The translations under genes and the position numbers were made by a program. This document shows positions 5,012 to 59,193 of a DNA stretch of 64,000 nucleotides, one piece after another. Every line of letters begins with the position of its first letter. Within the stretch, counting starts at the first letter, position 1. Below the pieces are notes generated by a model, which was given only the letters and a program-made list of their open reading frames with translations, did not search any database and was not told where the DNA came from. This stretch comes from Membranipora membranacea (Eukaryota > Bryozoa > Gymnolaemata > Cheilostomatida > Membraniporidae). The stretch is from the NCBI GenBank assembly GCA_914767715.1, contig OU612075.1, forward strand, positions 10,602,001 through 10,666,000, read 5' to 3'.

Positions 5012-6967
5012 ATTCAGCAAATCAAAAGAGAAGCTGAGGACCTGAAAACAGAATTTAAAGACCATCTTAACAAGTCGACAGGAATGGTAGACGAGTTTTC
5101 TGAGGAAATGCTGCTGAACACCACAGTTCTGGATGACCTGTATATCTATGGAACTCATTTAGCAGACAGAAGAGCAGACGAGCAGCTACTGGAAGAATTT
5201 GATGAGGTATCTTCAAACCTAACACAAGCAAATGACAACATGGAGTGTGAGACAAAGGTGGCCCTCAAAACACCCTATCTGCATACAGGTAATAAGTTTG
5301 CATACAGGTATATTATATATTATTATAATGGAGTGGACTAATATATATATATATGTGTATATATATGTGTATACTCATATCTGCACATGCGGGGCAATGA
5401 CCACAATGACCAAGGGGTAAATAACCGAAACGAAGGAAATATTAGATGGCATAAAGCAATAGAGCTGAATTAATGGATTAAACTGATATTATGTTCCTTC
5501 CTGTTTCAGTGTTTGGGTCTAAATCCTTTAGGAGTAGGAGGTAGCTCAGTTGGTGAGAGCGCCGTCTTCAACATGCAAGTGATGAAGGTCGTGGGTTCGA
5601 ATCGTACTACTGGGGTTAGGTTGGCCCCCAGGTGTGCTCCAACCTGCTTGTAGACTGAAAACAAAAATGGCGCAGCCTCGCCATTAAGGCAAAAAGTATA
5701 TCGCCGCCCATGCTTCGGGATGTGGCGTTTGATATGTCATCCGAATTTAATCAACCTTTTAAACAACATTTAGGAATATGTAGCCATGGCCAGAAAAATT
5801 GGAACCAGTTTGTGAAAAAAGTTAGAACTAGAAACTAAAAGTACAAATGGATTGTAGCACGCTGTCCACATGTGACTGTAGGGATAAGCTTACACATGTC
5901 TATGATGATAGTAGTCAAAAACTATCTAATCACCAGTTTGATTGTTATTTTCCAGGTCCAGGCTCAGTGAATTTGAATGGAGAAATGGGATTCCTACCAA
6001 CAGCAATAACACATGTGAAACAAGAGAAAACAGGTGATGACTGCTTTGGGGTTAGCTGGACGCACAACGACAGAATACTTTGCACCACAGATGAAGGGCT
6101 CGAGATTAGAGACCCTGTTGACTTGAAACTACAGAAGCAACACCTAAATAATAACTACGAATATTCCTCTGCTACTCTTTGTGGAAGCAAACTGTTCACA
6201 AAGGGCGTTTCAATTGACTTAGAGAAATACATAACCTTTTCCGGATCACTTGAGCAACCTACTCGTTCTGTATTACACATTGAAGTCATTGATGGACCAG
6301 TCCCTCCTACCTATATGTCAGCAAACAAAAACCATGTAGCAACCATTGACCACGCCAATAACATGTTAAAACTCTTTTCAACTATTAAAGAAGAGCACCA
6401 GTTTGACATTCAGCTAATAAATGGACATTACCCATATGGAGTTCATCTCACATCTGATGCAGCACTAGTGACATTCTATGAAGAAGGGAAGCTGAGTAAA
6501 TATGCTCTGTCACCTTCACCAGACCCAATCTGGACATATGAAGGACTGGAGGGGCCTTCAGGAGTAACAACAGATGAGTCAGGCTTTATCTATGTAGCAA
6601 GTGCGCGCGAACCCACAATCAACATCATCTCAGCTGAAGGTAAGTATTATTAGCAACCCAAGAAGCGTTAATTTAGTTTTACTTCATTATTTTATTTGAA
6701 TATATTTAGAGGTCAAATCTTAAATTTGGATGTGGCCTAATATGAATTTATTTGAAATGTTTAAACACCACTTTAGTTTGTAACTCAAAAATATCACTTT
6801 ACAAAGTTTGGTTACCACTTGTAGGTGAGAAGATAAGAGAGCTGACTCATGAGAAGCTACAGGAGTGTATCGATGATGATTCCTGGATCTCAGATATTGC
6901 TGTGAGAGATGGGAAGATGGTGTTAGCTTGTAAACAAGAGGGTGTCATGCTCTTCAATATGAGCTAG
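5012..6967 (+). pseudogene. TRIM-like copy A, 5'-truncated (exons 5-7 only)
   Basis: Three exons match the 3' half of the array gene: exon 5 at 5012-5288 (coiled coil), exon 6 at 5956-6639 (beta-propeller/NHL-like) and exon 7 at 6825-6967, ending TAG. Splice sites are CAG/GTAATA, CCAG/GTAAGT and TGTAG, and phases agree (1-2, 1-2). All three exons are open. Intron-4 sequence homologous to copies B and D starts near 4660, but no RING, B-box or exon-4 sequence lies upstream. The copy therefore looks like a partial duplicate whose breakpoint fell in intron 4. It could be expressed only from a foreign promoter and would lack ligase activity. Confidence 0.75.
5537..5790 (+). mobile_element. tRNA-derived SINE in intron 5 of copy A
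   Basis: A tRNA-like head has an A-box-like TAGCTCAGTTGG at 5542-5553 and a B-box-like GGTTCGAATCG at 5594-5604. A shared non-tRNA body follows (GGTTAGGTTGGCCCCCAGG onward). The same sequence sits at the same intron position in copies B, D and E. The Pol III boxes and body together argue for a SINE and against a working tRNA gene. Confidence 0.7.
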
Positions 6968-17400: not shown

Positions 17401-19137
17401 AACATGGAGTATGAGACAAAGGTTGCCCTCAAAACACCTTATCTGCATACAGGTAATAAGTTTGCATACAGGTATATTATATATAATTATAATGGAGTTG
17501 ACTAATATATATATATATATATGTATATATATGTATATACTAATACCAGCACATGCGGGGCAATGACCACAATGACCAAGGGGTAAATAACCGAAACGAA
17601 GGATATATTAGATGGCATAAAGCGATAGAGCTGGATTAATGGATTTAACTGATATTATGTTCCTTCCTGTTTCAGTGTTTGGGTCTAAATCCTTTAGGAG
17701 TAGGAGGTAGCTCAGTTGATAAGAGCGCCGTCTTCAACACGCAAGTGATGAAGGTCGTGTGTTCGAATCCCACTGCAGTCTATCATCTACTGGGTTTAGG
17801 TTGGCCCCAAGGTGTGCTCCGACCTGCCCGCAAACTGAGAACAAAAATGGCTCAGACATTGCATCCTAAGGCAAACAAATATTTTGCCGCCCATGCTTCT
17901 GGATGTGGCGTGTGATATGTCATCCGAAATTAATCAACCTTTTAATCAGACCAGGGAAATTGGAACCAGTTTGCGAAAAAAGTTAGAACTAGAAACTAAA
18001 AGTACAAATGGATTGTAGCACGCTGTCCACATGTGACTGTAGGGATAAGCTTACACAAGTTTATAATGATAGTAGTTGAAAACTATCCAATCACCAGTTT
18101 GATTGTTATTCTCCAGGTCCAGGCTCAGTGAATTTGAATGGAGAAATGGGATTCCTACCAACAGCCATAACACATGTAAAGCAAGAGAAAACAGATGAGG
18201 ACTGCATTGGGGTGAGCTGGACGCACGACGACAGAATACTCTGCGCCACACAATTCGGCCTTGAGATAAGAGACCCTGTTAACCTTAAATTACAAAAGCA
18301 ACACCTAGATAATAACTACTTGTTTTCCTCTGCTACTCTTTGTGGAAGCAAACTGTTCATAAAGGGCATTTCATCTGGCTACGAGAAACACATAACCTTT
18401 TCAGGATCACTCGAGCAGCCTACTCGTTCTATATTAAACAGTGAAGTCACTGTTGCAACATCCATTCTTACCCATCTGTCAGCAAACAAAAACCACGTAG
18501 TGACCATTGACTCTACCAATAACATGTTGAAACTCTTTTCAACTATTAATGAAGAGCACCAGTTTGATATTCAGCTGACAGAAGGACAGAACCCATATGG
18601 AGTTCATCTCACATCTGATGCGGTACTAGTGACATTCTTAGAAGAAGGAAAGGTGTGTAAATATGCTCTGTCACCATCACCAGATCCAATCTGGACATAT
18701 GAAGGACTGGGAACCCCTACTACAGGAGTAACAACAGATGAGTCAGGCTTTATCTATGTAGCAAGTGCTGACATGCATAGAATCTACATCATCTCAGCTG
18801 AAAGTAAGTATTATTAGCAACCCAGACAGCGTTAATTTAGTTTTACTTGATTGATTTTTGTGAACTTAATTAGAGGTCGAATTTTGTTGTGGCCTACTAT
18901 GAGTTGATCTTGGATGTTGTAAAGCACCACTTAAGTTTATAACTTTGAGGATCCTCAAACACTTTACTATACCTAGTTTGGTTATCACTTGTAGGTGAGA
19001 AGATAAAAGAGCTGACTCACGAGAAGCTACAGGAGTGTTTCGATAAAGGTGCTTGGATCTCAGATATTGCTGTAGGAGATGGGAAGATGGTGTTAGCTTG
19101 TCATGAAGAGGGTGTCATGCTCTTCAATATGAGCTAG
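11429..19137 (+). CDS. TRIM/RBCC protein with NHL-like propeller, copy B (intact)
   Basis: Seven exons join in phase to 638 codons: 11429-11631, 11850-12042, 12294-12510, 16577-16773, 17176-17452, 18117-18803 and 18995-19137 (TAG). The RING is C3HC4: C26-x2-C29, C44-G-H46, C49-x2-C52, C64-x2-C67. B-box 1 covers about 105-141 (CNRC, CCADC, HQH). B-box 2 uses C160, H163, C172, C175, C180, C183 and the H208 in CHEVVPL across an intron. Exons 4-5 (206-362) are charged and helical, as in RBCC coiled coils. Residues 363-638 resemble a beta-propeller, with an NHL-like GVTTDESGFIYVAS near 565. By family, such proteins are cytoplasmic E3 ubiquitin ligases whose propeller binds RNA or protein; the target here is unknown. 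Odd points: Y127 replaces a B-box-1 cysteine that is present in C and D, and intron 3 is expanded by a transposon. It is the only array copy with all exons open. Confidence 0.85.
12679..16327. mobile_element. 3.65-kb TIR DNA element in intron 3 of copy B
   Basis: Both ends carry CTCAGTGACTTATATGG as a perfect 17-bp terminal inverted repeat (12679-12695 and the reverse complement at 16311-16327). Copy D holds the empty site, GATTGAATGAAGA near 48865; in B the element is flanked by AT on each side, consistent with a 2-bp duplication. No transposase is recognisable: the longest frame (14847-15212, 121 codons) has no known motif. It is therefore probably non-autonomous. The superfamily is not assigned. 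Confidence 0.75.
14596..14807. repeat. Nested foldback repeat inside the TIR element
   Basis: The arm at 14596-14649 pairs with the reverse complement of 14750-14807. Shared blocks include TTGTCACCTAATG and ATAATTTGCACAAAC. A degenerate relative lies at 640-770, so this is a dispersed family rather than a local palindrome. Confidence 0.6.
17702..17945 (+). mobile_element. tRNA-derived SINE in intron 5 of copy B
   Basis: The A-box-like TAGCTCAGTTGA is at 17708-17719 and the B-box-like TGTTCGAATCC at 17760-17770, followed by the same body as in copies A, D and E. The first B-box base has decayed. It is orthologous to the copy A insertion, so the insertion predates this duplication. Confidence 0.7.
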
Positions 19138-19273: not shown

Positions 19274-20854
19274 ATGAACAAAGGCAAGAAGAGAAAACTC
19301 ATTTCCAGTAATGATCCTGATGAGGATGATGCTGAGGATAATATCTTCACCTATTCGCTCAACAAGTTGAAGGCATTACAAAAGAAAATCGACTCTACTA
19401 CCACTGATGAGTCTATCACCATAAAAGGTAATCCGGGAAACATCCAAATTGTCGTTGACTGCAGCACAGCTGTTTTTGAGCTTGTCAGATCTATATTTCA
19501 AACATCAATTCAGGAGCAATATCTTTATGTAACTAGGAAAATGAATAAAGATAAGGACAAAAACACAACAGCCACCATATTCACCGTTAAAAACAAGAAG
19601 TAATCGGATAGACGCCTTTATACTGCAAACTTTTACCATACCACCTCTAGAATACTGGTGAATGCTATCAAAGATGTGGATGTGTTTATAAGTCACTACT
19701 CTAAGCTGGTAGGTGAATTACAGCCAGAAACAATTGCCAATTTAAACGAGAAAGTCCGTTCCTCATGCTCAAATGCAATGGAATCGCTAAAAAGTAAACA
19801 AACCAATGCCAACAGCAGCACAACTCAACAACAAAGCACACAAGGTGCTCTAGGGGGATCTACAGTTTCACTGCCAGAGTCTTCTCAGTGTTCCCTGTCT
19901 GAGACAATGGAGACTTCTGCTCCATTCGTCGACAGCGCTCCCAGTCATTCCAGGGACAGAGATTGTGGGGAGAGTCCCGGATGTGCGTCATGCAGAACTC
20001 TACATGGCGTGCTTTCTATTATGATGGAGAAGATGGACAGCATGCAGGAGAAGATGGACAGCATGCAGGTTAAATTGGATAAAATTACTAGTGCTTTTTC
20101 TGAGAGCCCTAGTACAAAGGAATGTCCATCAAATTCCAAAAATACCGTACAACAAACATATCTTCCAACTCAAACTCTTAACACCACACAACAATGGTCA
20201 TCAGTTGCAAGCAGCAGTAGACAACTCCACAGAAATATTCCTTCATCAACAACACATCAAAACACACCAACACCAAGTTCACCGGCAACTACATCCAACA
20301 CACCAGATCACATGCCATCTATTACAAAAACAGCTCGTCCAAACAACTTCAACCCCAAGCACTGCATCGTAATAAGTATCAACAAGTCATCAAAAACCTA
20401 CCAAAACTATAATCAAGACAACATCAGACGTGAGATTAACCGTGAATTCGGCCCAACAATCATAGAAAACATAACGACCTACAATTTCAAGACAGAATCT
20501 CCAAAAATTATGCTGCACCTTCGCGATGAAAAGACAGTGACCAAGTTGATAAACACTTGGAATACATTACTATTTGAAAATTCGCAAGTAAGAAAGACAA
20601 TCAATCCAGAATCAGCAAAAGTCAACACTGGTATGCTGAGAGGCATTCCTATCGATGCTGATGATGAACTTGTAATAAAAGAGATATCACAGAATTTCCC
20701 CAACTCTTCAGCTATAAGGATTTACAAAGGGGAAAAGAAAATGCGCATCTTTAAAGTAAAGTTTGACACTCAGGACCAATACAACAAGGTCTTCAGTCAA
20801 GGTATGATTTTAGACTCACTTAAACTTAAATGCCATTTTGAAAAACTTCTATGA
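19274..20854 (+). pseudogene. LINE ORF1 with one in-frame stop
   Basis: The open frames 19274-19603 and 19658-20854 are in the same register, interrupted only by TAA at 19601-19603 (codon 110 of about 526). The N-terminus is acidic then basic. A Cys/His cluster (CGESPGCASCRTLH, near codons 231-244) precedes a short coiled coil built on a repeated KMDSMQ motif. The C-terminal ~160 residues resemble the RNA-binding/RRM-like region of LINE ORF1 proteins (GMLRGIPIDADDE). No CCHC knuckle follows. The expected role is RNA binding in the retrotransposition particle. Loss through the nonsense codon is the simplest reading; sequencing error or readthrough is possible. Confidence 0.7.
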
Positions 20855-23595
20855 TGGCAATGAATTTTCATAGCGCATATCTTAATATCCGTGGATTGGC
20901 AAGCAAACTGGAAGAGGTTCGTTTAATTCTTAGTGATCACAAATTTAGTATACTGTGTTTGGCTGAAACATTTTTGAATGAAAATGATGACAGCTGCCTA
21001 TATGAGGTACCAGGATATACGATGATAAGAAGGGATAGGCTCTGTAACAATGGTGGGGGATTACTCTGCTATGTCCATGATTCACTGGTCATTGAACATC
21101 TGGAAAATTTAGATCTTTACATGGATGAGAGTATAACAGTCAAGGTCAGACCCAGAAGCCAAAAGAGTTTTTTGGTCACATACTTATATAGACCTCCCCA
21201 ATCAAAAGCATCATGGAACACAGACTTTTCAGAGTTTGTCGAGCGTTGTTATGGTTTGAACGATGAAATTATAATATTTGGTGATTTCAATATTGATTTG
21301 CTGAATCCAACTTCGAAAAACAGGTGGTTAGATAATGTTACCTCTCCACTACTGTTGAATCAACTTATATCTGAACCCACTCGCATAACTAATTCATCAA
21401 GGACACTAATTGACCACATCTATTCAAGTAAAAGTGACAATATTGCTAAATCTGGTGTCATCAAATATTCACTGAGTGATCATTTCATGATAGTAGCTTC
21501 AAGAGAGATTGATAAAAATTTTAAAATATCTAAACAAAGATGTAAGGTAACATTTTTGGATTATTCATTTGCAACACCTGAAAACATTTTCAACACATTC
21601 TCAAGGGAAAATTTTGGTTACGTACTGTATGAAAGATCAATAGACTCAATGTTTGAGAAGTTTTATAGCCATTTGAATCATCTTATATCAAAACTCGTGT
21701 TTGAGAAGACTCGTTTTGTAAGAACGCATAATCTTCCAAAATGGTTGGATGATGAGGTAAAAATGAACATCAAAATCAGAGATCAACTCAAACAAAACGG
21801 TGATTGGGAAGGATATAAAAAACAGCGAAATTATGTCACTAATATGATCAGACAAAAGAAGAAAAGAGCTATTTCTAATACTATTAAAGAGTCTAAAGGT
21901 AATACAAAACCTGTTTGGGATGTATTAAAGAATAAAAAGAAGGAGACTTTCCCTGCGACAAATTTGAGTGCAGATCAATTTAACAGCCATTTCACATCCA
22001 TTGCAAAATCAATCACAAAGAACCTTGTTGTAACAGATGAGATGACATTTCCCGTATCCAAACATAATTTAACAGACATACCACAATTCACCCCTTTCAC
22101 ATGTACAAGAATATTGTTCCACATTCCTGATAGTAAAAGTACAGGACCTGACAGAATTACAGTGAAGATGTTGAAGCTTGTTTGGCCTTATATTGTGGAT
22201 ATTGTCACTGATATGTTTAACAGGGTTTTAAGCAAAGGACAGTTCCCTTCAACATGGAAACTAGCTCGAGTTTCACCAATACATAAATCTGGGGATATAA
22301 ATAACCCATCAAATTATAGGCCAATTTCAGTCTTGCCTGTTCTTTCAAAAATATTTGAGAAACACATAAATCACCATCTGCAAGAATATCTCACTAAGAA
22401 CAAAATCATCCATGAGCTTCAATGTGGATTTAGAAAAGGCCATTCTTGTTCAGACAGTTTATTTAAAATTATTTCAGACTCTTTGGTGGAGAAAATTAAT
22501 AGAAATGTTATGACATTACTTTTTCTGGATTTTAAAAAGGCATTTGACTGTGTATCCCATGTTTTACTACACAATAAGTTGAAGGCTTGCGGCATCGGAG
22601 GAAATATATTAAAACTTCTTGACACCTTTCTGACAGACAGAAGGCAGTTTGTTAAACTCAATAATATTGAATCTTGTAGATTGCCTATCACAATAGGGGT
22701 CCCTCAAGGTTCAATCCTAGCACCAACTTTGTTTCTCATCTTCATAAATGATTTATTAACTTCATCAAAATCAGACTCATCATCATATGCATATGCTGAT
22801 GATACAGTGTTCCTGTCATCTAATAAAAACCTTCAGCAACTAAAGGCAAAGGCATCTGAAGATTTAAGTGGCATTTTGGATTGGTGCAATCGTAACCGGA
22901 TGGTTATAAATGTTCAGAAATCTCATTACATGCTACTTAATATCTCAGATCCGCTTTATGACCTGGAACTGTACATAGGGCATGAAAAACTAAACAGACA
23001 GAGAACTACAAGGCTTCTGGGTTTTGTGTTGAATGACTCGCTTTCATGGCAGGATCATCTAGAGTATGTATATAAAAAGGTACAACGGAATGTTTACCTA
23101 CTTCAAAATTTGAGATACTTCTTGGATATAGCAAGTGCCCGCACATTTTACTTCCAGTTTATCTATTGTCACCTTATATATGGTATCCATATCATTGGCA
23201 ACTTGTCCTGCAGTAATGCCCTCAATAGATTATTTTTGTTGCAAAAACGGGCTTTACGCATTATCGCCAATGTGCATTACATCCCGTATTATCTCATTTC
23301 AACCGAATCCATTACACAATCATTACAACTCCTACCTCTTCCTAAGCTTGTTCGTTATTTCACTTCACTTTTTGCGCATAAGATAAACAATTTTTTAACA
23401 CCTCCATTTATATATAGAGGATTTAAAAACACTACCAAGTTCAATTTTCGTGATAAACATTTACTTTTATATCATACAGACAATCTAAGATACAAAGTTT
23501 CTGCTACATACAATTCTTTACCGTTACATATGAGATCTAAAGAGAAGTTCAGTTCATTCAAAACTTTACTTTTCAACCATATATTATCGACTTGA
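20851..23595 (+). CDS. LINE ORF2: APE endonuclease and reverse transcriptase
   Basis: This is an intact 914-codon frame. Endonuclease motifs in order are NIRGL (about 12), AETFLNE (about 40), GDFNID (about 145) and SDHFMI (about 210). Reverse transcriptase motifs are YRPISVLPVLSKIFE (about 490), CGFRKGHS (about 525), FLDFKKAFD (about 560), GVPQGSILAP (about 617) and the catalytic YADD (about 649). No RNase H follows. This layout is that of the CR1/L2/Jockey group, which primes reverse transcription from a nicked target. The ATG overlaps the ORF1 TGA as ATGA, which suggests coupled re-initiation. The frame shows no damage, so the enzyme may be recently active. The clade cannot be fixed without a phylogeny. 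Confidence 0.92.
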   Translation: MMAMNFHSAYLNIRGLASKLEEVRLILSDHKFSILCLAETFLNENDDSCLYEVPGYTMIRRDRLCNNGGGLLCYVHDSLVIEHLENLDLYMDESITVKVRPRSQKSFLVTYLYRPPQSKASWNTDFSEFVERCYGLNDEIIIFGDFNIDLLNPTSKNRWLDNVTSPLLLNQLISEPTRITNSSRTLIDHIYSSKSDNIAKSGVIKYSLSDHFMIVASREIDKNFKISKQRCKVTFLDYSFATPENIFNTFSRENFGYVLYERSIDSMFEKFYSHLNHLISKLVFEKTRFVRTHNLPKWLDDEVKMNIKIRDQLKQNGDWEGYKKQRNYVTNMIRQKKKRAISNTIKESKGNTKPVWDVLKNKKKETFPATNLSADQFNSHFTSIAKSITKNLVVTDEMTFPVSKHNLTDIPQFTPFTCTRILFHIPDSKSTGPDRITVKMLKLVWPYIVDIVTDMFNRVLSKGQFPSTWKLARVSPIHKSGDINNPSNYRPISVLPVLSKIFEKHINHHLQEYLTKNKIIHELQCGFRKGHSCSDSLFKIISDSLVEKINRNVMTLLFLDFKKAFDCVSHVLLHNKLKACGIGGNILKLLDTFLTDRRQFVKLNNIESCRLPITIGVPQGSILAPTLFLIFINDLLTSSKSDSSSYAYADDTVFLSSNKNLQQLKAKASEDLSGILDWCNRNRMVINVQKSHYMLLNISDPLYDLELYIGHEKLNRQRTTRLLGFVLNDSLSWQDHLEYVYKKVQRNVYLLQNLRYFLDIASARTFYFQFIYCHLIYGIHIIGNLSCSNALNRLFLLQKRALRIIANVHYIPYYLISTESITQSLQLLPLPKLVRYFTSLFAHKINNFLTPPFIYRGFKNTTKFNFRDKHLLLYHTDNLRYKVSATYNSLPLHMRSKEKFSSFKTLLFNHILST

Positions 23596-27225: not shown

Positions 27226-27230
27226 TGGTC
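27226..27230. repeat. Target-site duplication, left copy (TGGTC)
   Basis: TGGTC immediately precedes the left inverted repeat TGTTACACCC. The same five bases follow the right end at 34073-34077. This supports transposase-mediated insertion. Confidence 0.8.
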
Positions 27231-27625
27231 TGTTACACCCACAAGTGTAATAATTTTCAAAACTTGTAAGAACACCCACAAATATAATAATCTCTTCCCT
27301 CAAATGTAATAACCAACCACAACTGTAATAACTTCTTCCCTCAAGTGTAATAAAATGCTTCACCCACAAGTGTAATAATCTGTTCCCTCAAATGTAATAA
27401 AAAAAAAATCACCCACAAGTGTAATAATCTCTTCCCTCAAATGTAATAATTTTATTCGCCGTTAATTGTATTGGAGAATAGAGAGGTAGATCATCTGACA
27501 GTGCTATTACTGTGTTATATGCGCCTTTTGGTGTTTTTTTGCGCTCCAAATTGTCATAATAGGGCTTTAAATCATATGAAAATCCATCTGTTTGAGTTGT
27601 ATAGGGGAGACAACGTAATTGTAAA
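27231..27625 (+). repeat. Left terminal inverted repeat with tandem subrepeats
   Basis: Alignment to the reverse complement of 33664-34072 is nearly continuous, with small indels. The outer 220 bases are tandem subrepeats; the inner part is unique (CAATTGTATTGGAGAATAGA-like, then AGGGGAGACAAC). Confidence 0.85.
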
Positions 27626-28916
27626 TGGCTAAAAATTTAAATCCTATGAAAATCAATCCATCATTCATCCATCCATGTAATCATTTTTCACCATACCTAT
27701 TCTGCAGCTAGCGGGCCATTTTTCTTTCCTAGCTTTCAATAAAACTCCTAAATTTGACCTGCAGTGGAGCACACCTAGTTAGTAGCACCGCAATAGACCA
27801 GAGGAAAAGGTTATGAGTTATAGGCCTAACTAATTCTAGTTATTAACCTATTGATTTGTATCATAAGCAGGTGTGAAAATAACCAGATTTGTTTGGAAGG
27901 TGTTGGAATAACATGGGCATAGGCTTAGTGCAAGGAAGACAAAGCTGATAAAAATTACACTACCCACTGTCAGTGGATGAAGCACAACTTGAGTTTTAGT
28001 GATGAGTTAATATGTCCACAATTTTTTATCAAAGGCTGCGCCGGCACCCAGTCATGGTCGTAGTAAGGCAAAAAGTCTCAACTGTACTTTTTTATATACT
28101 GCTCATTACCAATAACATTAATTTTGCGAATGCTTGCAATAGTTTTTAATCAAGCAATGGAACCTATAAATATCCTAGCTATCTCTGCGCATGTCCTTGG
28201 TGTCAAGGGTAAGCGGTGACAAACCTGCTGATTTAGAAATAGAATGAACATTATGTGCTGGCAGCCCACCAGACAGCACTACCAAAGACTATAAATAGAC
28301 TAAAAATTCATCTAATAATTTATATATATATATACATATTATGTACATTGTACCTTTATTGACATAAGACTGCTGCTTATAAAAGTACAGGAATATAGAC
28401 GAGTAGGTGTTGGACAGGCCAGTACAGAAATTTAAGACATAATTTTTGATTATGGAACGGTAATAAGAGTATGAAAATAAATGCTACATGATGTATGAGA
28501 CCTATGACCTGACTTCTATTTTAAAAGATGAACAGAAAGTCAGTACTACTAATAACTAATCTACAGTTTAATCCACACAAGCACACAACATGATATAATG
28601 ATTGAAGTAAGAAAGCTAAATGTATAGTATTGAATCAGGGAACAAAAATACATCGGATTTAATTAGATTAATTAATTCCAGTGTATGTTTGTGACTCGAT
28701 ACCACCCGAATCTTAGTTTCTCCAAAGTAATGTAACCGTTTATCCAGCCAGTGCCATAGCCCTGCAAAATTTCTCGCAATTCTATCGCCACTCCACTGCC
28801 TCTTCCACAATGTTGCATGATCGTTCTAACACCGATCACTGGGTTTAGTTCCAACTTCAGCTCTCTCTCATCCATTAGATTGAAATATACCTGTGGGCAT
28901 GACTTACGGGATTCAT

Positions 28917-28930
28917 ACACACACACACAC
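28917..28930. repeat. (AC)7 microsatellite inside the F-box exon
   Basis: Seven AC units (GT on the coding strand) end the F-box frame: the frame runs PVCVCV and stops at TGA in GTATGA. One repeat unit more would join it to the frame reading YESRKSCPQVYFNLMDE down to 28672. Repeat length therefore decides the C-terminus. Confidence 0.6.
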
Positions 28931-31900
28931 AGGAAATTGAGTTCCAAAGACGGTCTTTATATTGAGGAAATCATATATGCTGCCTCTGGCAGCATACCGG
29001 AATATGCGCTCAATATCAGCACATTTCAAGTCGGAAAACTTGCAACGAGGCTTCCGGCGCATGTTGAGGGCTAAATCACGCCACAGCCGACACACACTCC
29101 GTATCCTTGTCAGACTTCTGAGATCGACGGAACATAACTGAAGTAGGAGCATAATCACTAGTAGAGGCAGTTCGTTGATATGAAGTGGCGATCTATAAAA
29201 TATTAGACAGAAAAGATGAATCACACTTTCATATCGTAATCAGATCGGTATAAATCTCCCTCCCAGTGAAATGCATTCTTATAACCCTAATCACAATGAT
29301 GAAGTAGGCCCTACATACATACAAAATATATCACGTCCTACTATATATCTTCTTATTTCCCTGATGGTAATTTTTAAAGTAGCAATATAACATCAAGTGG
29401 ATTCGGTATAGATATTGTAAGTGAATAGTGCCATTTACGCACCGTTCCTCAGCTGACTCCTTTGATGATGGAGTTTCCTTATCACTGTCAGTGGTCTTTG
29501 GCAGACAGGTTGCTTTTCGCTTCACTTCTACAGTGCTGGTACTACAATGGTAGAAATCAAAATACATGTTATCAAGAACGTAATGCATCTTTGCCCTTGA
29601 TCAAGAAACACGTATCGACAATATATAGGCAATGACGGTCAGAATAAATAGTCTTTACTTTGCTCTTTGTCTTTGATAAGTATGTTTTCAGGGGCCGCGC
29701 AGCTTACCATATTTTCAAGCTCCTGTACCGAGCTTGATGAATTTATTCACTGTCATTCTGACTTGGCAAGGAAAACCTACCAAGATTTTGAACCTGAAAG
29801 CTGGAAGCGACAATAGGAGTTATCCTTCCATGTATTTAGGCCTTACCTGATATGAAATGCTGAATTCTGTGCTTTAATGCGGCTGCTGTTAGACTCGATA
29901 ATTGTATGATTGATGGGAATGTCTGTTGCTTCTGATGTACTGGCGCTACAACCATTCAAAGAAAAAGGAAATTTTATCATCGGTTCTATCACTGCCCCGG
30001 TTTACACAGTCTTAATTTTGCAACATATTCATATAGGTGATTGAAGTTATTTGTAAACCAGGAAGCATCTCTAGTTTGTCTCCTGTCCACTACTCATTGT
30101 ATCACATGCCATTTATACTGTATAATTGAGTCATCGTGGCTTGCACAAAATAAGTTGTACTATGTTTGGGTTTGAACATTAATGATCATGCGTTTAGAAT
30201 GAATCAATGGAAACAAAATTAAATACCTGGTTGTAGGGGAGGGTCTTGTGGAATCTGTCGTAATCTGCCTTGAACTCTCAACGATTTGATGTATGTCCCT
30301 CATGTCATTCCTAAGGACTACATAATGGGTACCTCTCGTCTCATCTTGATGGCCAAGTACAATCGTGGGCAGCGCTCTATTAAATGCTCTGCTTCCACTT
30401 GGTGTTAGTATTGTTGATCCATGTTGAATAGTAGAATCAATGAGTATCTGCACATTGAAGATTTCTGCAGCTACCTGGAGCGTTAGATGGTCGCCAAATT
30501 CCGCATTTTGGCTCATCCGTGTGATGTATTCGTTTTCATCCTCCCCAATTGCTTCAGTCCACAACACGCTGTTTTGGATTCCGACATACCTGTTTCTCAT
30601 GGGATATTCAATAACCTCACTTCTGAGTGTGTCCGCCGAACGGTATATTCCTAACTGTTGAATAGCGTACACTATGGCTGCAAATTGACAGTTCCCATCC
30701 GGTGCTGGGTTGAAAATGGTCGGCGAGGCAAAGATTTGAGAGCTGTTGCTTATCAGCACGTCCAATCTGGTTTGCTGCATTCGTTTCTTTTGGAGACTAA
30801 GTGTACTGCCAGTCAGGTCCCTGACTGAAATCCACTTCGTTTTGGCATTGTTATTTAAGTGATATTTTACTTTATACATGTACAGTTTTTCATTTCTCTG
30901 GATTACGTTTCCCATCACAACCTTTGCCTTGGATATTCCTTTGTTGCCTGTCCTTAGCCGTATCAGGACTCTGTCATTTATTTCATGTGTCGGTGTTTTT
31001 AATGACCTGATTGAGCGTCTTATAACTCTCTCATTTTCCTTTCCACTGGCTATTCTTGCCTCACTTCGAATTCTCTCAGTTGTGTTCTCGGATGTTGTGA
31101 GGAACTTCTCCCGTCCGTAATACATATTTAGTGGACTCCACCAGGCTAGTTCTCCTCGTGGCATATCGTTCAACTGGAGTTCATATGTAGGAAGCTCATT
31201 TACCCAGTTTGTACCATTGGGATTCGAGATGAGGTCGTACTGCATTTTGTACCTCAACGTACGGTGGGACCTCTCTACTTTCCCCTGCGACTCTGGGTGA
31301 TATGGGCTGCTGAATATTTGTCAAATGTCTCTTGCCTTCAGCAGTCTGGACACATCCTGCTTAAATTCTGTACCTTGGTCATTCTGGACTATCTTTGGGT
31401 TACCAAACGTGTCAAATATCGCCTTCAGCTCCTTTGCCACATTTTTTGAAGATTTTCTGGTCAACGGTCTCAGCCAGGTGTATCTAGAGAAGACATCGAG
31501 CACAGTCAGAATATATCGATATTCTTTACCATTATGATACGCCGGGTTGTTACGAAAGTCAACTAAGTCGATTTGAACTCGCCACATGACGGTCCTACAG
31601 CATATCGGTGTAATGGGAGCCTTGTTGCTGAACCTAGCAGACAGTCTTTGCCGGGTGGTTGAGTGTTGTAACGCAGATGCAATAGTTGCCTCAGAGAATC
31701 CTACGTATGTGCCTTTCATTTTTAACTGCAAACGTCGTGGTCCAAGACCCTTCTCAATATCAAAGTGTTTAGCAATCACTGGTGCCTTCTCGGATTGTCG
31801 TATCACTCGTAATCCATCTGCAAAAAATCAGTAAAATATGGCATTACAGTCTGAGACATATTGACAATGTAGTATGCAGATGCTTTGTGTTGTGTGATTA

Positions 31901-31972
31901 AACACCTAGGGACTCGAATCAAAGTCATGGAGATATGTTCTTGTTCAAATTCACACCAACCTTCATACACCT

Positions 31973-32032
31973 GGAGTTGTCTTCTATGTATTTTGATATC
32001 AATTGACTCCAACAAAAAGGGCGGACAACTCC
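31973..32032. repeat. GGAGTTGTC inverted repeat within the transposon intron
   Basis: GGAGTTGTC at 31973 and GACAACTCC ending at 32032 are perfect inverted ends around 42 bases. The ends match the hairpins found in TRIM spacers, so a small element of that family seems to sit inside the Ginger-like element. Confidence 0.5.
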
Positions 32033-32228
32033 AATATTCCACACAAACTACATTAGCTACTGCTATTGATATGGATGCAGTATGAATGAGTAAAGTCATA
32101 GTGTATGCACCGAGGTTATTTCAATTAAGTTTCATTGCCATCTTCTTGTTTCATGAATGAGGATGTGGAGACAAGAAAATTCATCAAAATTGACCGAACT
32201 TCAGCGTAATAGCCAATTAACACTAGGG

Positions 32229-32417
32229 GTGGAATGAGACTGTTTTTGAAAGTCAAAACAAGATGAGAAGGGACAGCATGAAGTAAGGACAAAGTAGGAA
32301 CAATTCTATCATCTTCTTCCCGCTTCGAAAATAAGAATGGGTAACTTAGTTTTGTGTCAACGAGACTGCGTCACCCCGCCTCGAAACCCATCTCGAAACG
32401 GAGGGGCGTCTCATTCC
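32229..32417. repeat. Short element with GGAATGAGAC inverted ends
   Basis: GGAATGAGAC near 32229 and GTCTCATTCC ending near 32417 are inverse to each other. The interior has repeated CTCGAAAC motifs. It is possibly a MITE in the intron between the second and third transposon exons; no duplication was confirmed. Confidence 0.35.
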
Positions 32418-33663
32418 TAATGAAGACAATTAATAGTCATGCGTTACCTAAAATAAACATTACCCGGAGAGACGGGTAATTCGAAAATGCTGTGCTACAA
32501 ATTGGGCTGTGTGTAATGAAATATTCAATGAGTACATTGTGAATTAGGCTCTGCTTACCAAGGAGAAGAATCTGTTCTGAGTCTTTGATTTCCACGCTCC
32601 AACGTCCCCTGTAGCGCCAGTGATGAACGTATGCAGAACGCTCCAATTTACTGCGGTCCTTGACTGCGGATTTAAAGTTTCCACTCTCTATTTTCATAAT
32701 CACATCATATATGCCATCATTCATCACAGTAGGCTTTCTCTTTCCTCTAGCATACACACTGTCGCAGCATATGAATATCGAAAAGACAAGTAGTAACATC
32801 AGTCTGAAAAAGAACAAACAAATTTCACTGATGACAATTCAAGTTATAGGTTTCATCAATGACTTAGATCATTGGTTTCATGTATAATACTATTATTTGT
32901 AGCCGAACCGCTTAACATCCGAAACCTGGTAACTATTGTCAGTTCCTTGCCAGGATTGATGATGGAATGCCAATGACAGGCAGTAACTTTAAAATGCTTG
33001 TAGAAACAATGAGATGTAAATGAGATGTAAATGAGATAGTGATTGTTTTTGCTCACCTGAGGAGTGAAGTTGACATCTTGGTCGCTGCAATGAAAAGCAA
33101 TAACTGATGAAAAATTCTACTTTCTTTTACACTGTGATATATTGGGGTAATAATGTCCAGCTGCGTCTGTTTATTTTTGACTTCAAGCTTTTGTTCAAGT
33201 TATGAAACATTATGATTGATATTTTGTGCATAAAAAGAGAGGTAAAATTAACACGTATTTATTAATTGGTTGAATGTACAATAGAATTAGACCGATCAAA
33301 GTCAACTGTGACTATCCTATGCTACAACGTTTTTTTCACACATCAGCTTGTATATATCTTTCATTACAACTATTTGAAACTCTCTCCGTAAAAATATTTC
33401 ACATGATTGTCCGAGTTTATGTAAATCCTAGCCACCCTAAATGACGGCTCCAAAAAAATAATAAGGTGGGCAGCATCAGTAATATCATAGTTTGACCATC
33501 GTGAATCTTGATGTGCTCTGGCTGGCTTAATCAATACCATGACTCTTCCTACTAGACATATAAATTTTGGTAATATTGTAGAGTACAATGAGATTGATTG
33601 TTAATACCCGTATTAAATTTGTTAGAGATGATCTCTCTAAGTGGAAGCTTCTTATCAGTTTCA

Positions 33664-34072
33664 AAGTTTATAATAAAGTTGTCTCCCCTACACAACTCAA
33701 TGCCTTTGCATGGATTTTCATAGGATTTACATTTAAAACCCTATTATGACAATTTGGAGTGTAAAAAAACACCATAGGCGCTTATAACACATTAATAGCG
33801 CTGTCAGATGATCTGACCTCTCTATTCTCCAATACAATTGCCGGCAAGTAAAATTATTACGTTTGAGGGAAGAGATTATTACACTTGTAGGTGATTTATT
33901 TTTTATTACATTTGAGGGAAGAGATTATTACAATTGTGGGTGAAGCATTTTATTACACTTGAGGGAAGAAGTTATTACACTTGTGGGTGGTTATTACATT
34001 TGAGGGAAGAGATTATTACATTTGTGGGTGTTATTACAAGTTTTGAAAATTATTACACTTGTGGGTGTAACA
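33664..34072 (-). repeat. Right terminal inverted repeat with tandem subrepeats
   Basis: This is the inverse partner of 27231-27625. Subrepeats read TTTGAGGGAAGAGATTATTA and ACACTTGTGGGTG. The last bases are GGGTGTAACA, followed by the TGGTC duplication. Confidence 0.85.
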
Positions 34073-34514
34073 TGGTCTCTTTGGCGACCAGTAGACTGAA
34101 AAAGAGTGATAACTGGTGAGAGCAAAATATCCATCAGGAGGTTGACATGGTGGCAAGTCATTTCATTCAAAGCAATAACAACTTTCAAAAAAACTAACAA
34201 AAATCCAGCGCATCTATATCTATCCAATAAAAGAATTACATTCTCTTTCTTCTAAAGACATATTTACGGATAGTGCAGAAAAATCATTTTGACCGAAAAG
34301 CTTATATGGAATTTTTTTTTATATCTTTTAATTTTCCTCCTAGATTTTACTTTTATCGATTAAACAACAAGGGTGGATTTTTTTTCAGAAATGACAATAA
34401 ACAAACCTCAGACTACAAAAGTAACAGTGAAATTTTAAAATGTTGAGAAAAGAGGAATACTTACTCCTGTCCGTCTTGCAGCTCGACAGATTCCATTTTG
34501 TCAGCGGAAGGCAT

Positions 34515-36048
34515 GGTTCTGTTACAGCAGTGTGTCCCTATGATTTCTTCTTCTTTCTATGCTTCCAGTTCACAACCACCACGACTCTGACCGTGTAGTA
34601 TTTGCTTCACAGAGACATTAAGATTGACAGCTGTTGAAGAGTGACGCTATTGACCAGGTAACGTGGCTCCCACCTGTAATTAGTTGCCAGTTTTAATAGA
34701 CAGTCAATCAATATGAAGGTCGAAGGTTGTATCCGTTTGGAGTTCACCACAACAATACAAGCCAGCAGATCATGTGATACTCGGTAGCGAAATAACACAG
34801 GTATAATTAGCTTGCCTAAGACATCTGTTTATTAGTCCAAAAGTACCTCCGTGCTTGTGAGGATTCAGTATCTACCATCGTATATTATTCGATGAGCACA
34901 TAAAATTCCACTCTCAGGTTGATTATGATTATAATTGATCACACCAAACCAGCTGTACATGCCCTTGTGGGTTAAAGAAAATAAAAGGCAGGCATTAATC
35001 CATTAAAATTAAAATTAAAATTAAAACAGTATGACAAGGAAAATCCTTCATCAAAACCACCTTTCTTTAAATACCAGTGAGTAGAGAGCCTAGCCATCAC
35101 TCTCCAAAAGTTTATGACATTTTTTGTAGTAAATGGTTCCTCAAAAGAGTAAAAGAATAATAGAATAATACAAAATTATTTAAATTTAAGCATAAGTGAG
35201 CCAGCTAACATTACTGTATACAGGTTGAAGTTCAGCGGGCACAGAACTTCTACAAACATGGACCATCAGTTTATATACCAAAATGCACTCAGAAAAATGA
35301 AACATATAATTCCGTTCAGACTTAAATTGGGTATGAACATTGGCCATTGTGAAATTAGATGTTATTGAAACCTCACAAAGGCTGCAGTAAATTTTTAGTG
35401 AAGTTTCAGGTTTTTAAAACGTCAAAAAAACACTTGTGCATTCTAATGAGAATCTTTGAGCTTCAGGAATACCAACCTGCTCACTGGCCAGAAAGATACA
35501 TAAAATTTTGATTACCCCCAAGTGCAAATATCTGAAATGGGGTAAACCAGAGATAAAAGCCAGAACTTTGATTGATTAAAGTTGGTTGGTTGTGTCTTGA
35601 GCAATGTCAGAATGCAAATCAAGATGTAGCCAACAAGACGGCGCAAGAGGGAAGAGTGTGCAGAAACAACACAGAAAGTCTTGCAGAGAGCCCTAGGGTG
35701 AACATTAAACCGCAAGTACAGTGCACAACTGACCTGCAACAGGAACAATTCACAGTCATTCAACTGGACATATAGCACTCTCACCTCAAGACTACCACAA
35801 CCATATCTAGCGATGCAGCGTTCGATTATAATTGTTGAATCACAATAATAACTTATATCCATCTGCAGCAAATGTACCCAAAAGTTGACTTTTAACAAAC
35901 TACAGCTAAAAAATATGTGTGTCAATACTAGGTCAGCAATGACATTTCACACTAGGATAAAATAATACCACATGTTCAACATAAATTATATTAAATAATT
36001 AAATGATTAAAATTAATAACTAACCATTAATAGTTAATAATAAATAGT
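34515..36048. other. 5' flank of the minus-strand gene, no other gene seen
   Basis: The promoter of the minus-strand gene would lie just above 34514, but no clear motif is visible. TTAAAA-type short repeats occur near 34996-35024. Open frames up to 137 codons overlap on both strands without a domain. Confidence 0.45.
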
Positions 36049-36428
36049 AAAGCGTAACATAGTAAAGGGTAGCGTAGAAAAGCGTAGCGTGGTAAGGCGT
36101 AGCGTGGTAAGGCGTAGCTTAGTAAGGCGTAGCTTAGTAAGGCGTAGCGTAGAAAGGCGTAGCTTAGTAAGGCGTAGCGTAGTGAGGCGTAGCGTAGTGA
36201 GGCGTAGCGTAGTAAGGCGTAGCTTAGTAAGGCGTAGCGTAGAAAGGCGTAGCTTAGTAAGGCGTAGCGTAGTGAGGCGTAGCGTAGTGAGGCGTAGCGT
36301 AGTAAGGCGTAGCTTAGTAATGTGTAGCGTGGTAAAGCGTAGCGTGGTAAGGCGTAGCGTGGCAAGGCTTAGCGTAGTAAGGCGAAGCGTAGTAAGGCAT
36401 AGTTGATAAGGCGTAGCGTAGTAAAGCG
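36049..36428. repeat. 15-bp minisatellite with 90-bp higher-order repeat
   Basis: About 25 units of GTAGTAAGGCGTAGC-type sequence run in tandem. Variants (GAAAGG, GTGAGG, CTTAG) recur every 90 bases; for example AGAAAGGCGT is at 36151 and 36241. So six-unit blocks were amplified together. Both strands stay open because 15 is a multiple of three; these frames are not taken as genes. Confidence 0.9.
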
Positions 36429-36574
36429 TTCAGCATGAATCAATGTATCCAAACATAGAAGTTAATGGTAAAAATGTGTTTTGATGTATAATTCATTTGA
36501 GGTTAGTAGAGAAACGATACTTTATCATTCAACAAAAATGATAGATAGTCTATTACGGCTCGCCATATATTTAC

Positions 36575-47620: not shown

Positions 47621-50600
47621 ATGGCTACAGCGGCAAGGCTTACGGAACCAAAACCATTGGAATATATAAAGGTAACAGTAACCAGAGAGACAGCCTGTGG
47701 ATTCTGTGGTCTGACATTATATGAGATACAGGAACCAAGAGCTCTACCCTGTGGTCACACTCAATGTACTGAGTGTATCCATGTCAACTATCAGAATAAG
47801 GAGATAGAGTGCAAAGTCTGCAGGTAAGGCCATAAGAGTCAAAACCTCCAAAATAAGTTTTGTGTTGGAATAGTTTGGTGGTGCCAAGGCGCTTGTTTTT
47901 TATTTGATATTGTCATCGCTAGGCATAACAATATCCTTCACTTAAAGTAGGTTTTGTTGCAGATGCATTGCACACAGGAAGTCCAGGAATGATCCTCACA
48001 AAACAGCATCTAAAGTCTAAACCAAAGATATATTTATAGGGAAACCTTCAAAGATGTAGACATCAGAGCACTACCCACAATTCCGGAGCACCTTGTACAG
48101 GAAGCACTGGCTGATACAGAGTTAGGATTACCGTCGGCAGGAAGAGAATGTAATCGATGTGAGGGTGAGAAAGTGAAGGCTGTGGTCTGTTGTGCTGACT
48201 GTAAGAAAAGGTTCTGTCACCAACATGCTGAGGTAGGAACCCATCACCCTCAAGTCAGAATAGAAAAATGTACATTTTTTGTGAAACTCATAAAAACAAC
48301 TACGATACTTGACAACTGTTACCTAGCTGAGTCGCCAAATGGAATAATCATATAAACAAATCTTCTTCTGAATACGAATTTTCAATCTGTACATCATTCT
48401 GAGTTTAAAAGTATTACATACCTGAACAAAGTAATAATTTATAATTCTCGATGACTTAGATAGTATACTGTACTATTCATACAGGAGCACTTGTTCCATT
48501 GTGGCGATCATGCACTTCTGCCGATAGAAGACAACCTGACACCAGAAAGATACGAGGTAGAAAGATGTAAGACTCACAAGAAGCATGTCCTTGAGGAGAT
48601 TTGTAAGAACTGTATGAAGCAGTTCTGTAGGAGGTGTGATTCCATGGTAGCATGTTCAGCCTTAAATCAGAGGAGTGATCGGGCTGCAGCCCTTAATCAA
48701 GGTTGGTGTAGAATGAGTCCATGAGTTAATTGCAGAGTAAAGGGAAGAGACAACGGAAAACAGTATTGGTAAATTTGAAAATAACTACTTGTGAGAAACC
48801 ATCACTTTGATTACAGCAACCAGGTTAAATTCACTGGCCATTTTTGGTCAGGCTAATGTTTGATTGAATGAAGACCCACTATCCGAGCAAAAGTTTCAAA
48901 TTTTTTTTATTATGTATAATTCTAATAGGATAACCAAATAGGAAAATAGTAGAAACTTTTAATCTTAGAGTACAAGGTTCAATGCCAGATCCTTATCAGC
49001 AAAATTTAAAATATGGAGATAGGGTTCGTTTGAACACCAAAAATGCAACGAAAATATCCGGGAATAAACCTCTGGAAATAATAACTATCCTTTCTGTTGT
49101 TCTTGTAATTTTAGGCATGTGCCATGAGGTTGTCCCACTCAAAGATGTGACCGAAGAAATGAGGGAGAAACTACGAATGCTGTCACAGAACATTTTAGAC
49201 AAAATAAAAAGATGTAGACACATTGAAAAGTCTAGCTGGAAGCGTTTAGCTGAACTGGAAACTCACATAGCTAACATTTATAATCAGATAGATGAAAGGG
49301 CTGAAAATCTGGTGAGTTGTTATTTGATGCAAAGAAGTAAGTTGGAATTCGTCTTTTCATGATACAAGAGCAAGCAACTCTCTCCTATTTTAGGAGATGC
49401 TTTAAGACTAGGTTTATCAATCATTGTATGTAGCTCATGTGTTTTGTCATCAGAGCAACAATGGTGTTTTTGCTAAATAAATTTGATCCAAGAGGGCGTT
49501 GTCAATATGACTTGAAAATTGAACAGCCCTGAGTTTAGTAGACCATTGTCGATCCAATTTGCCGGCATTCCAGTTGTTCGTACTCTTCAGGTGAGCTGCC
49601 AACCTTTTGCCAGCAACCCAAACTCCGATGAAGGCAAATTGGATCAATTTGATCTTGAGTATATTGGTTTCTATCACCGACTACAGATTAAGCAAATCAA
49701 AATAGAAGCTGAGGACCTGAAAACAGAGTTTAAAGACCATCTTAACAAGTCGACAGAAATGGTAGGAAAGTTTTCTGAGGAAATGCTGCAGAACACCACA
49801 GTTCTGGATGACCTGTATATCTATGGAACTCATTTAGCAGACAGAAGAGCAGACGAGCAGCTACTGGAAGAATTTGATGAGGTGTCTTCAAACCTTACAC
49901 AGGCTAATGACAACATGGAGTATGAGACAAAGGTCGCCCTCAAAACACCTTATCTGCATACAGGTAATAAGTTTGCATACAGGTATATTATATATTATTA
50001 TAATGGAGTTGACTGATATATATATATGTATATATATGTATATACTAATACCTGCACCCGCGGGTAAATAACCGAAACGAAGGAAATAGTAGATGGCATA
50101 AAGCGATAGAGCTGGATTAATGAATTAAACTGATATTATGTTCCTTCCTGTTTCAGTGTTTGGGTCTAGATCCTTTAGGAGTAGGAGGTAGCTCAGTTGG
50201 TTAGAGCGCTGTCTTCAACACGCAAGTGATGAAGGTCGTGGGTTCGAATCACACTGCAGTCTATTGACTACTGGGGTTAGGTTGGCCCCAAGGTGTGCTC
50301 CAACCTGCCTGCAAACTGAGAGCAAAACTGGCGCGGACATTGCAGCCTGGCCATTAAGGCAAAAAAATATTTTGCCGCCTATGCTTCGGGATGTGGCGTG
50401 TGGTTTGACATCCAAATTTAATCAACCTTTTAATCAACCCTTAGGAATACGTAGACATGACCAGGGAAATTGGAACCAGTTTGTGAAAAAAGTTAGAACT
50501 AGAAACTAAAAGTACAAATGGAGTGTAGCACGCAGTCCACATGTGACTGTAGGGATAAGCTTACAGAAGTTTATAATGATAGTAGTCGAAAATATCTAAT

Positions 50601-51633
50601 CACCAGTTTGACTGTTATTTTCCAGGTCCAGGCTCAGTGAATTTGAATGGAGAAATGGGATTCCTACCAACAGCCATAACACATGTGAGACAAGAGAAAA
50701 CAGCTGCCTGGTGCTTTGGGGTGAGCTGGACGCACGACGACAGAATCCTTTGCGCAACACCGGGCAGCCTTACGATTAGAGACCCTGTTGACTTGAAACT
50801 ACAGGAGCAACGCCTAGATAATAACTACATGTATTCCTCTGCTACTCTTTGTGGAAGCAAACTGTTCATAAAGGGCGCTTCATCTGACTTGAAGAAATAC
50901 GTAACCTTTTCTGGATCACTCGAGCTGCCTACTCGTTCTATATTACACAGTGAAGTCACTGTTGGACTCGCCCTTCATACCCAAGTGTAAGCAAACAAAA
51001 ACCATGTAGTGATCACTGAGCAGGCCAATAACATGTTAAAATTCTTTTCAACTATTAATGAAGAGCACCAGTTTGACATTCAGCTGACAGAAAGACTGGA
51101 CCCATATGGAGTTCATCTCACATCTGATGCAGCACTAGTGACTTAGAAGAAGGGAAGCTGAGTAAATATGCTCTGACACCTTCACCAGACCCAATCTGGA
51201 CATGTGACGGACTGAAAACACCAACAGAAGTAACAACAGATGAGTCAGGCTTTATCTATGTAGCAAGTGCGTGCGAATCCACAATCAATATCATCTCAGC
51301 TGAAGGTAAGTATTATTAGCAACCCACACAGCGTTAATTTAGTTTTACTTGATTATTTTATTTGAATATATTTGGAGGTCAAATCATAAATTTGGATGTG
51401 GCCTAATATGAGTTTATTTGAGATGGTTAATCACCACTTTAGTTTGTAACTCATAAATATCACTATACAAAGTTTGGTTACCAGTTGTAGGTGTAAAGAT
51501 AAGAGAGCTGACTCACGAGAAGCTACAGGAGTGTATCGATGAGGATGCCGTGATCTTTGACATCGCTGTGAGAGATGGGAAGATGGTGTTAGCATGTGAG
51601 CGGGAGGGTGTCATGCTCTTCAATATGAGCTAA
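47621..51633 (+). pseudogene. TRIM-like copy D: intact RBCC, broken propeller
   Basis: Exons 47621-47823, 48040-48232, 48485-48701, 49115-49311 and 49687-49963 are open and in phase, with full RING, B-box 1 (Cys retained) and B-box 2 ligands. Exon 6 (50626-51305) has a nonsense TAA at 50988-50990 where other copies have TCA. It also has a 4-base deletion near 51141 relative to A and B. Exon 7 is 51491-51633 (TAA). The predicted product is 483 residues: RING, two B-boxes, coiled coil and about half the propeller. It could still be a functional truncated TRIM, but decay after the stop suggests otherwise. Intron 4 is about 46 bases shorter than in A and B. Confidence 0.8.
50183..50430 (+). mobile_element. 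tRNA-derived SINE in intron 5 of copy D
   Basis: The A-box-like TAGCTCAGTTGG is at 50189-50200 and the B-box-like GGTTCGAATCA at 50241-50251, with the shared body. It is orthologous to the copy A, B and E insertions. Confidence 0.7.
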
Positions 51634-58000: not shown

Positions 58001-59193
58001 AATACGTAGATATGACCAGGGAAATTGGAACCAGTTTGTGAAAAGAAATTAGAACTAGAAACTAAAAGTACAAATGGATTGTAGCACGCTGTCCACATGT
58101 GACTGTAGGGATAAGCTTACACGTGTTTATAATGATAGTAGTTGAAAACTATCTAATTACCAGTTTGATTGTTATTTCCAGGACCAGGCTCAGTGAATTT
58201 GAATGGAAAAATGGGATTCTTACCAACAGCCATAACACATGTAAAGCAAGAGAAAACAGGTGATGGCTGCTTTGGGGTTAGCTGGACGCACGACGACAGA
58301 ATACTTTGCACCACAGATGAAGGGCTCGAGATTAGAGACCCTGTTGACTTGAAACTACAGAAGCAACACCTAGATAATAACTACGAATATTCCTCTGCTA
58401 CTCTTTGTGGAAGCAAACTGTTCACAAAGGGCGTTTCAATTGACTTAGAGAAATACATAACCTTTTCCGGATCACTTGAGCAACCTACTCGTTCTGTATT
58501 ACACATTGAAGTCATTGATGGACCAGTCCCTCCTACCTATATGTCAGCAAACAAAAACCATTTAGCAACCATTGACCAAGCCAATAACATGTTAAAACTC
58601 TTTTCAACTATTAATGAAGAGCACCAGTTTGACATTCAGCTAACAAATGGACTGTACCCATATGGAGTTCATCTCACATCTGATGCAGCACTAGTGACAT
58701 TCTTAGAAGAAGGGAAGCTGTGTAAATATGCTCTGTCACCATCATCAGACCCAATCTGGACATATCAAGGACTGGAGGGACCTACAGGAGTAACAACAGA
58801 TGAGTCAGGCTTCATCTATGTAGCGAGTTGGGATGAGCCCAGAATCTACATCATCTCAGCTGAAGGTAAGTATTATTAGCAACCCAGACAGCGTTAATTT
58901 AGTTTTACTTGATTATTTTATTTGAATATATTTAGAGGTCAAATCTTAAATTTGGATGTGGCCTAATATGAATTTATTTGAGATGGTTAAACACCACTTT
59001 AGTTTGTAACTCAAAAATATCGCTATACAAAGTTTGGTTACCATTTGTAGGTGTGAAGATAAGAGAGCTGACTCATGAAAAGCGACAGGAGTGTATCGAT
59101 GATGATTCCTGGATCTCAGATATTGCTGTGAGAGATGGGAAGATGGTGTTAGCTTGTAAATAAGAGGGTGTCATGCTCTTCAATATGAGCTAG

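Follow-up and report, generated by a model that had tools for sequence, protein, structure and literature searches.

Why should a DNA transposon hold, in one polypeptide, parts for joining DNA, for removing ubiquitin and probably for recruiting a ubiquitin ligase? The question is raised by a 6842-nt element at positions 27231-34072 of a 64-kb stretch of the genome of the bryozoan Membranipora membranacea (assembly GCA_914767715.1, contig OU612075.1, positions 10,602,001 to 10,666,000; this whole stretch of 64,000 nucleotides is called the window hereafter). A first-pass annotation, made from the letters alone, had described the element as a Ginger-like transposon whose gene fuses an integrase, an OTU protease and a classic F-box. 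Our computational analysis recovers the element and its gene, and finds the same architecture of integrase, OTU domain, F-box-like segment and conserved C-terminal domain (CTD) again in relatives, including distant ones. Taken as a whole, we read the locus as a dead Ginger1-like transposon of the cut-and-paste type, the transposase of which would double as a deubiquitinase and an adaptor of SCF (Skp1-cullin-F-box) ubiquitin ligases, a reading that we hold somewhat likelier to be right than wrong. Such a transposon family may steer the protein-disposal system of its host, and would make a testable system of the remark by Bao, Kapitonov and Jurka (2010, PMC2836005) that transposases carry ubiquitin proteases.

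The element and its disabled gene

The element is bounded by inverted repeats that had been called at about 400 bp, and this holds: positions 27231-27487 and 33816-34072 are 95% complementary across 257 nt, and the similarity, partly built of subrepeats, extends to about 400 nt. TGTTA is present at either terminus, and a perfect 5-bp duplication lies directly outside either end of the one copy of the element examined. The six minus-strand exons proposed earlier, with phases 2,1,2,2,2, agree with their splice borders, as AG precedes exons 2-6 and GT follows exons 1-5. The features are as follows.

27226..27230 (no strand): target site duplication TGGTC, left copy, identical to 34073-34077
27231..27627 (+): left terminal inverted repeat, about 400 nt, starting TGTTACACC, with subrepeats of about 45 nt; inner end approximate
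28675..28956 (-): CTD, in a frame that differs from exon 6; E 1.9e-18 with a profile of 40 relatives' tails against 2050 window open reading frames (ORFs)
28916..29192 (-): exon 6, with the F-box-like segment at about 29176-29060 and a following stretch up to a GT repeat; sub-threshold Pfam F-box-like match (E 0.0013)
29443..29541 (-): exon 5, linker
29847..29945 (-): exon 4, linker
30227..31817 (-): exon 3, coding for the integrase, with its core at about 31590-31264, and for the OTU domain, from Pfam rve and OTU and motif positions
30313..30702 (-): OTU domain, PF02338 E 1.1e-9 on this exon piece; DGNC at 30699-30688, GTHYVVL at 30333-30313
31321..31323 (-): in-frame stop codon in the integrase core, residue 254 of the spliced product
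32559..32803 (-): exon 2, completing the signal-peptide-like segment at about 32749 and continuing with the integrase N-terminal domain
33057..33076 (-): exon 1, opening the signal-peptide-like segment (MSTSLLR), from splice reconstruction
33667..34072 (-): right terminal inverted repeat; inner end approximate
34073..34077 (no strand): target site duplication TGGTC, right copy, identical to the left copy

When the spliced product is compared with Pfam, rve (E 7.7e-14) and OTU (E 4.1e-9) are confirmed, the latter with the Cys/His pair that had been noted in DGNC and GTHYVVL; the F-box-like match (E 0.009) stays under the cut-off. The stop codon, the CTD and the signal-peptide-like start had gone unmentioned in the first-pass annotation. 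The ORF bearing the F-box-like segment terminates at the GT repeat, and a further conserved piece, the CTD, lies downstream in another frame; the gene therefore once extended past the six exons, to about 28675. The present copy is dead: its integrase contains a stop codon, and its reading frame breaks beyond the F-box-like segment. A normal intron joining exon 6 to the CTD was considered and set aside, as none of the donors among the listed splice sites offers a good consensus together with the needed phase and a usual intron length; the break may instead stem from a change in repeat length or from an unrecognised intron. The ancestral form would have been a single spliced gene for a signal-peptide-like leader, an integrase (N-terminal domains, DDE core and C-terminal domain), an OTU domain, a linker, the F-box-like segment and the CTD. 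BLASTN detected no second copy elsewhere in the window, and searches of viral contigs by protein pattern and by terminal repeat found none there.

Recurrence of the fusion and placement of the lineage

A first protein search with the spliced product as query returned 31 proteins, and a second with an alignment of 22 of these returned 227, of which 120 were listed; all counts below refer to the resulting 137 proteins (P0001 and so on), four of which (P0028-P0031) fall outside the family judged by their domains. The tail, meaning F-box-like segment plus CTD, is found in 61 of the 137 (>18 bits), at least three of these matches being partial (P0047, P0069 and P0073). Among the 59 proteins in which the OTU His box is followed by 160 or more residues, 50 carry the tail. 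The nine that do not are P0012, P0013, P0016, P0021, P0028, P0075, P0092, P0116 and P0134, where P0021 has the CTD only, P0116 appears to be a broken remnant, P0134 has another C-terminus and P0028 is a different, hAT-like protein. For the 76 of 137 proteins in which no tail is seen, absence has been told only partly from cut-short predictions and contig ends. The first-pass annotation had named one observation that would count against it, namely that other copies of the element end before the F-box; because relatives retain the tail in these proportions, the objection fails at family level.

In a rapid tree built from 49 integrase cores (of 64 submitted, 15 were skipped where the core pattern failed), tails occur in every main group with more than one member. 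The window integrase groups with P0001 and P0002 and adjoins the tail-bearing P0006. Among named hosts, tail-bearing proteins occur in two corals, Oculina (P0045) and Montipora (P0060), and in a grouper, Epinephelus (P0073, partial); named relatives in which no tail is seen come from the sea urchin Lytechinus (P0011, P0013), Oculina (P0014, P0024, P0127) and the coral Acropora (P0132). The last of these has a leader, and its integrase almost equals that of the tail-bearing P0022 (branches 0.04 and 0.04). A search for standalone tails gave 11 matches, 10 of them on contigs of 572-2916 bases, and none of the 11 has a precomputed Pfam domain. The eleventh is a 236-aa gene model of the mussel Dreissena, with the tail and without an integrase (P0143).

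The F-box and CTD exons might belong to a host gene, independent or captured, that sits between the inverted repeats and is joined in frame by chance, given that in the window they stand on separate exons and that the copy is broken at that point. In relatives, however, a single predicted protein contains all four parts, from the integrase through the OTU domain and F-box-like segment to the CTD, and several of these fusions lie on contigs with little room beyond the coding sequence (2747 bases for the 738 aa of P0020, and 2739 bases for the 739 aa of P0067). We therefore reject this explanation, which we regard as very improbable; the claim that integrase, OTU domain and F-box-like segment form one gene is borne out.

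Predicted folds of the relatives agree with the domain calls. The P0015 model (mean predicted local distance difference test score, pLDDT, 72) matches the prototype foamy virus (PFV) integrase over residues 36-462 and Otu2 over residues 487-637, and the P0103 model (mean pLDDT 84) matches OTUD3. Both the rve match and the PFV-like model thus indicate a DDE core of gypsy or retroviral type, and the Cys and His boxes of the window sit in a domain whose relatives are predicted to fold like OTUD3 and Otu2.

The label "Ginger-like" stands in part. Ginger1 elements with OTU (PMC2836005) likewise have a single spliced transposase gene with a retroviral-type DDE integrase and a C-terminal OTU domain, TGTNR termini (here TGTTA) and long inverted repeats, and either OTU or Ulp1 proteases have been described on their transposases. 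They differ in that their duplication is 4-bp CCGG/CCGT, whereas here it is the 5-bp TGGTC, the 4-bp strings of which differ as well, as judged from one copy; in inverted repeats of about 40-270 nt against about 400 nt here; in having 0-4 introns (Table 1) against at least five; and in an H2C2 zinc finger before the core. None of the 55 proteins that include the relevant region (window included) has the H..H..C..C pattern of this finger, although the same pattern was recovered in all three gypsy-type proteins used as a control (P0029-P0031); matching strings occur elsewhere in the protein in P0082, P0104 and P0134. A bare [GN]P[YF] string was seen in 14 of 138 proteins, not placed at the GPY/F position. 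Neither "F-box" nor "signal peptide" appears as a term anywhere in the main text of PMC2836005, in contrast with the tail and the signal-peptide-like start found here. Because both the H2C2 finger and the 4-bp CCGG duplication are lacking, we do not file the lineage under Ginger1, which it resembles in fold, termini and OTU.

Other known systems share single traits. Ginger2/Tdd elements have a retroviral-type integrase and TGTNR termini, and TDD-4/5 produce 5-bp duplications, but they possess the H2C2 finger that is absent from this lineage, and in the passages of PMC2836005 consulted no OTU is given for them. In nematodes, according to passages of PMC12062965, F-box-Mos1 genes also join an F-box to a transposase-derived domain; there, host F-box genes captured a Tc1/mariner helix-turn-helix, whereas here a full, element-borne transposase bears the F-box-like tail. 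Helitron and Helentron proteins (PMC6431247) may also contain OTU, but employ Rep/helicase chemistry without an integrase, and "F-box" occurs 0 times in the main text of that paper. In the open-access literature, covered mostly by titles and the starts of abstracts, with Repbase Reports and most subscription papers outside that scope, we found no account of an integrase-OTU-F-box fusion.

P0028, one of the tail-less proteins, has an OTU domain joined to what we take to be hAT-type transposase domains (precomputed PF02338, PF14291 and PF05699), and represents another transposase class bearing OTU.

The tail as a putative ubiquitin-ligase adaptor

In several relatives the OTU domain is followed by a linker, then by LP.E..I...V..F and then by a conserved block, GSG...W.NAWL....GW..I..I.WK, within the CTD of about 70 residues. 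Two profiles were built from relatives' tails only, with the window sequence excluded. Against the 2050 window ORFs, the profile of eight relatives recovers the CTD ORF at E 6.8e-13 and that of 40 relatives, as listed above, more strongly still, with the F-box exon second in the latter. The earlier "classic F-box" is an F-box-like segment in register and kept by relatives, the Pfam match of which lies below the curated cut-off: in the window the best score is 18.9 bits against 24.3.

Several observations make it likely that the segment is an F-box. Among 20 tails, Pfam F-box matches 10 and F-box-like matches seven (best E 2.2e-4), and these are the sole families to match more than one tail; among eight tails the numbers are three and two. 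A tail profile aligned with host F-boxes beats 20 shuffles and a reversal in the register LP.E..I ... V..F. The window exon itself has one listed match among solved proteins, FBXL17 (E 0.027 and 0.038). Three helices are predicted for the segment, the fold-match lists being filled by integrase and OTU.

The preferred reading would then run as follows. The F-box-like segment may bind Skp1, so that the transposase would also present substrates to an SCF ubiquitin ligase as its receptor, the CTD being the part that likely binds them. The OTU domain would deubiquitinate either the transposase that carries it or proteins bound there. At the integration complex, the two parts together could control how stable the transposase is, and likewise a host factor involved in repair or silencing. 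Ubiquitin would thereby be acted on at the transposition complex, where the transposase is protected and the host factor marked.

A number of results weigh against this proposal. The window's F-box exon matches the two tail profiles weakly (E 4.2 and 0.18). No F-box match exceeds the Pfam cut-off in the window, the 20 tails or 12 tail-bearing full-length proteins, and in eight of these 12 (P0005, P0007, P0009, P0015, P0038, P0063, P0072 and P0041) there is none at E up to 1. F-box proteins are absent from the matches of the tail profiles in the PDB at E up to 10, P0021 keeps the CTD while the F-box-like segment is gone, and a working signal peptide would separate the protein from Skp1 and DNA unless bypassed. 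These sub-threshold and absent matches, the far better agreement of the window CTD than of its F-box exon with relatives, and the recurrence of the tail over the integrase tree would also suit a conserved helical module, F-box-like but without Skp1 binding, that forms one unit with the CTD and helps the transposase itself, for instance to multimerise, to bind DNA ends or to choose targets. We consider this a credible but less probable account, since F-box is the only kind of Pfam family to recur among the tails, in the expected register, and the adjoining OTU is itself a ubiquitin-pathway domain.

The best solved match of the tail profiles is MDA5 (E 6.4e-4 whole and 0.032 for the best stretch; 0.0038 and 0.034 with the second profile), which would make the CTD a caspase recruitment domain; this was set aside because only about 30 residues match and both models (P0015 and P0103) predict strands in the CTD. 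A second CTD-like stretch in exon 6 is hinted at by P0019, P0007 and P0020 (0, 1 and 3 of 300 shuffles reach the score), and five other tails compared lend it no support.

Two variants of this region were also seen. In P0007-P0010 and P0012 the linker from OTU to F-box consists of many copies of a repeat of about 25 residues (SPPCAASLDQESTESTVIPSIYQQ), the number of which varies among these near-identical proteins. The distant member P0134 has an F-box-like segment (VCKRW) followed by a Cys-rich C-terminus in place of the usual CTD.

The signal-peptide-like leader and other features of the window

The 5' exons encode a signal-peptide-like start, which in the window reads MSTSLLRLMLLLVFSIFICCDSVYA and is unexpected in a protein meant to act on nuclear DNA. 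The N-terminal domain is present in 91 of 138 proteins (counting the window's own) and complete in 55, leaving 40 after merging at 80% identity. In 30 of these 40, the window's own among them, the most hydrophobic 12-mer of the protein lies upstream of the N-terminal domain, and in 29 of the 30 a small-residue cleavage site is plausible by a simple -3/-1 rule. The ten leaderless members are P0040, P0045, P0055, P0056, P0063, P0081, P0084, P0085, P0087 and P0096, some of which perhaps want their first exon; on the integrase tree, which included only six of these ten, leader state changes at least four times. The pattern suggests either a regulated choice of start or passage through the endoplasmic reticulum (ER). 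A search of the open literature, by titles and the starts of abstracts, found no account of a signal-peptide-like transposase start.

In host cells, OTU1/YOD1 and FBXO2/FBXO6 are parts of ER-associated degradation (ERAD). Were the leader a working signal peptide, the transposase could enter the ER and return to the cytosol and nucleus by retrotranslocation, with OTU and F-box as ERAD-like tools. The frequency and plausible cleavage site of the leader fit this idea, as do its place directly ahead of the domain matching the N-terminus of the PFV integrase and its presence together with the tail in 10 of the 30 proteins. Against it, the leader is missing from a quarter of the 40 members, the call is based on hydropathy while the start codons of predicted proteins are uncertain, and in several members a Met follows closely after the leader, so that a leaderless nuclear form is possible. 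We find ER entry doubtful. Still less probable, in our judgement, is its widest form: a widespread animal lineage whose transposase, routed to the ER by a cleaved signal peptide, would evade degradation during retrotranslocation through its own deubiquitinase and SCF adaptor and reach the nucleus, or even be exported between cells. If true, transposase activity would be gated by host protein quality control.

Elsewhere in the window, a retrotransposon of the type lacking long terminal repeats occupies 19604-23595 (+), with a 917-aa ORF2 that encodes an endonuclease and a reverse transcriptase (RVT_1 E 8.4e-36), preceded by a 416-aa ORF that has no Pfam match. Related ORF copies at 5832-6653, 18080-18817, 50586-50990 and 58169-58879 (all +) have GSVNLNG.MGFLPTAITHV in common; the three of this type that were scanned match no Pfam family above cut-off, and they look like an expanded host gene family. 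At 36034-36429 (-) a long ORF arises from a degenerate simple repeat (LTTLRLTTLR...).
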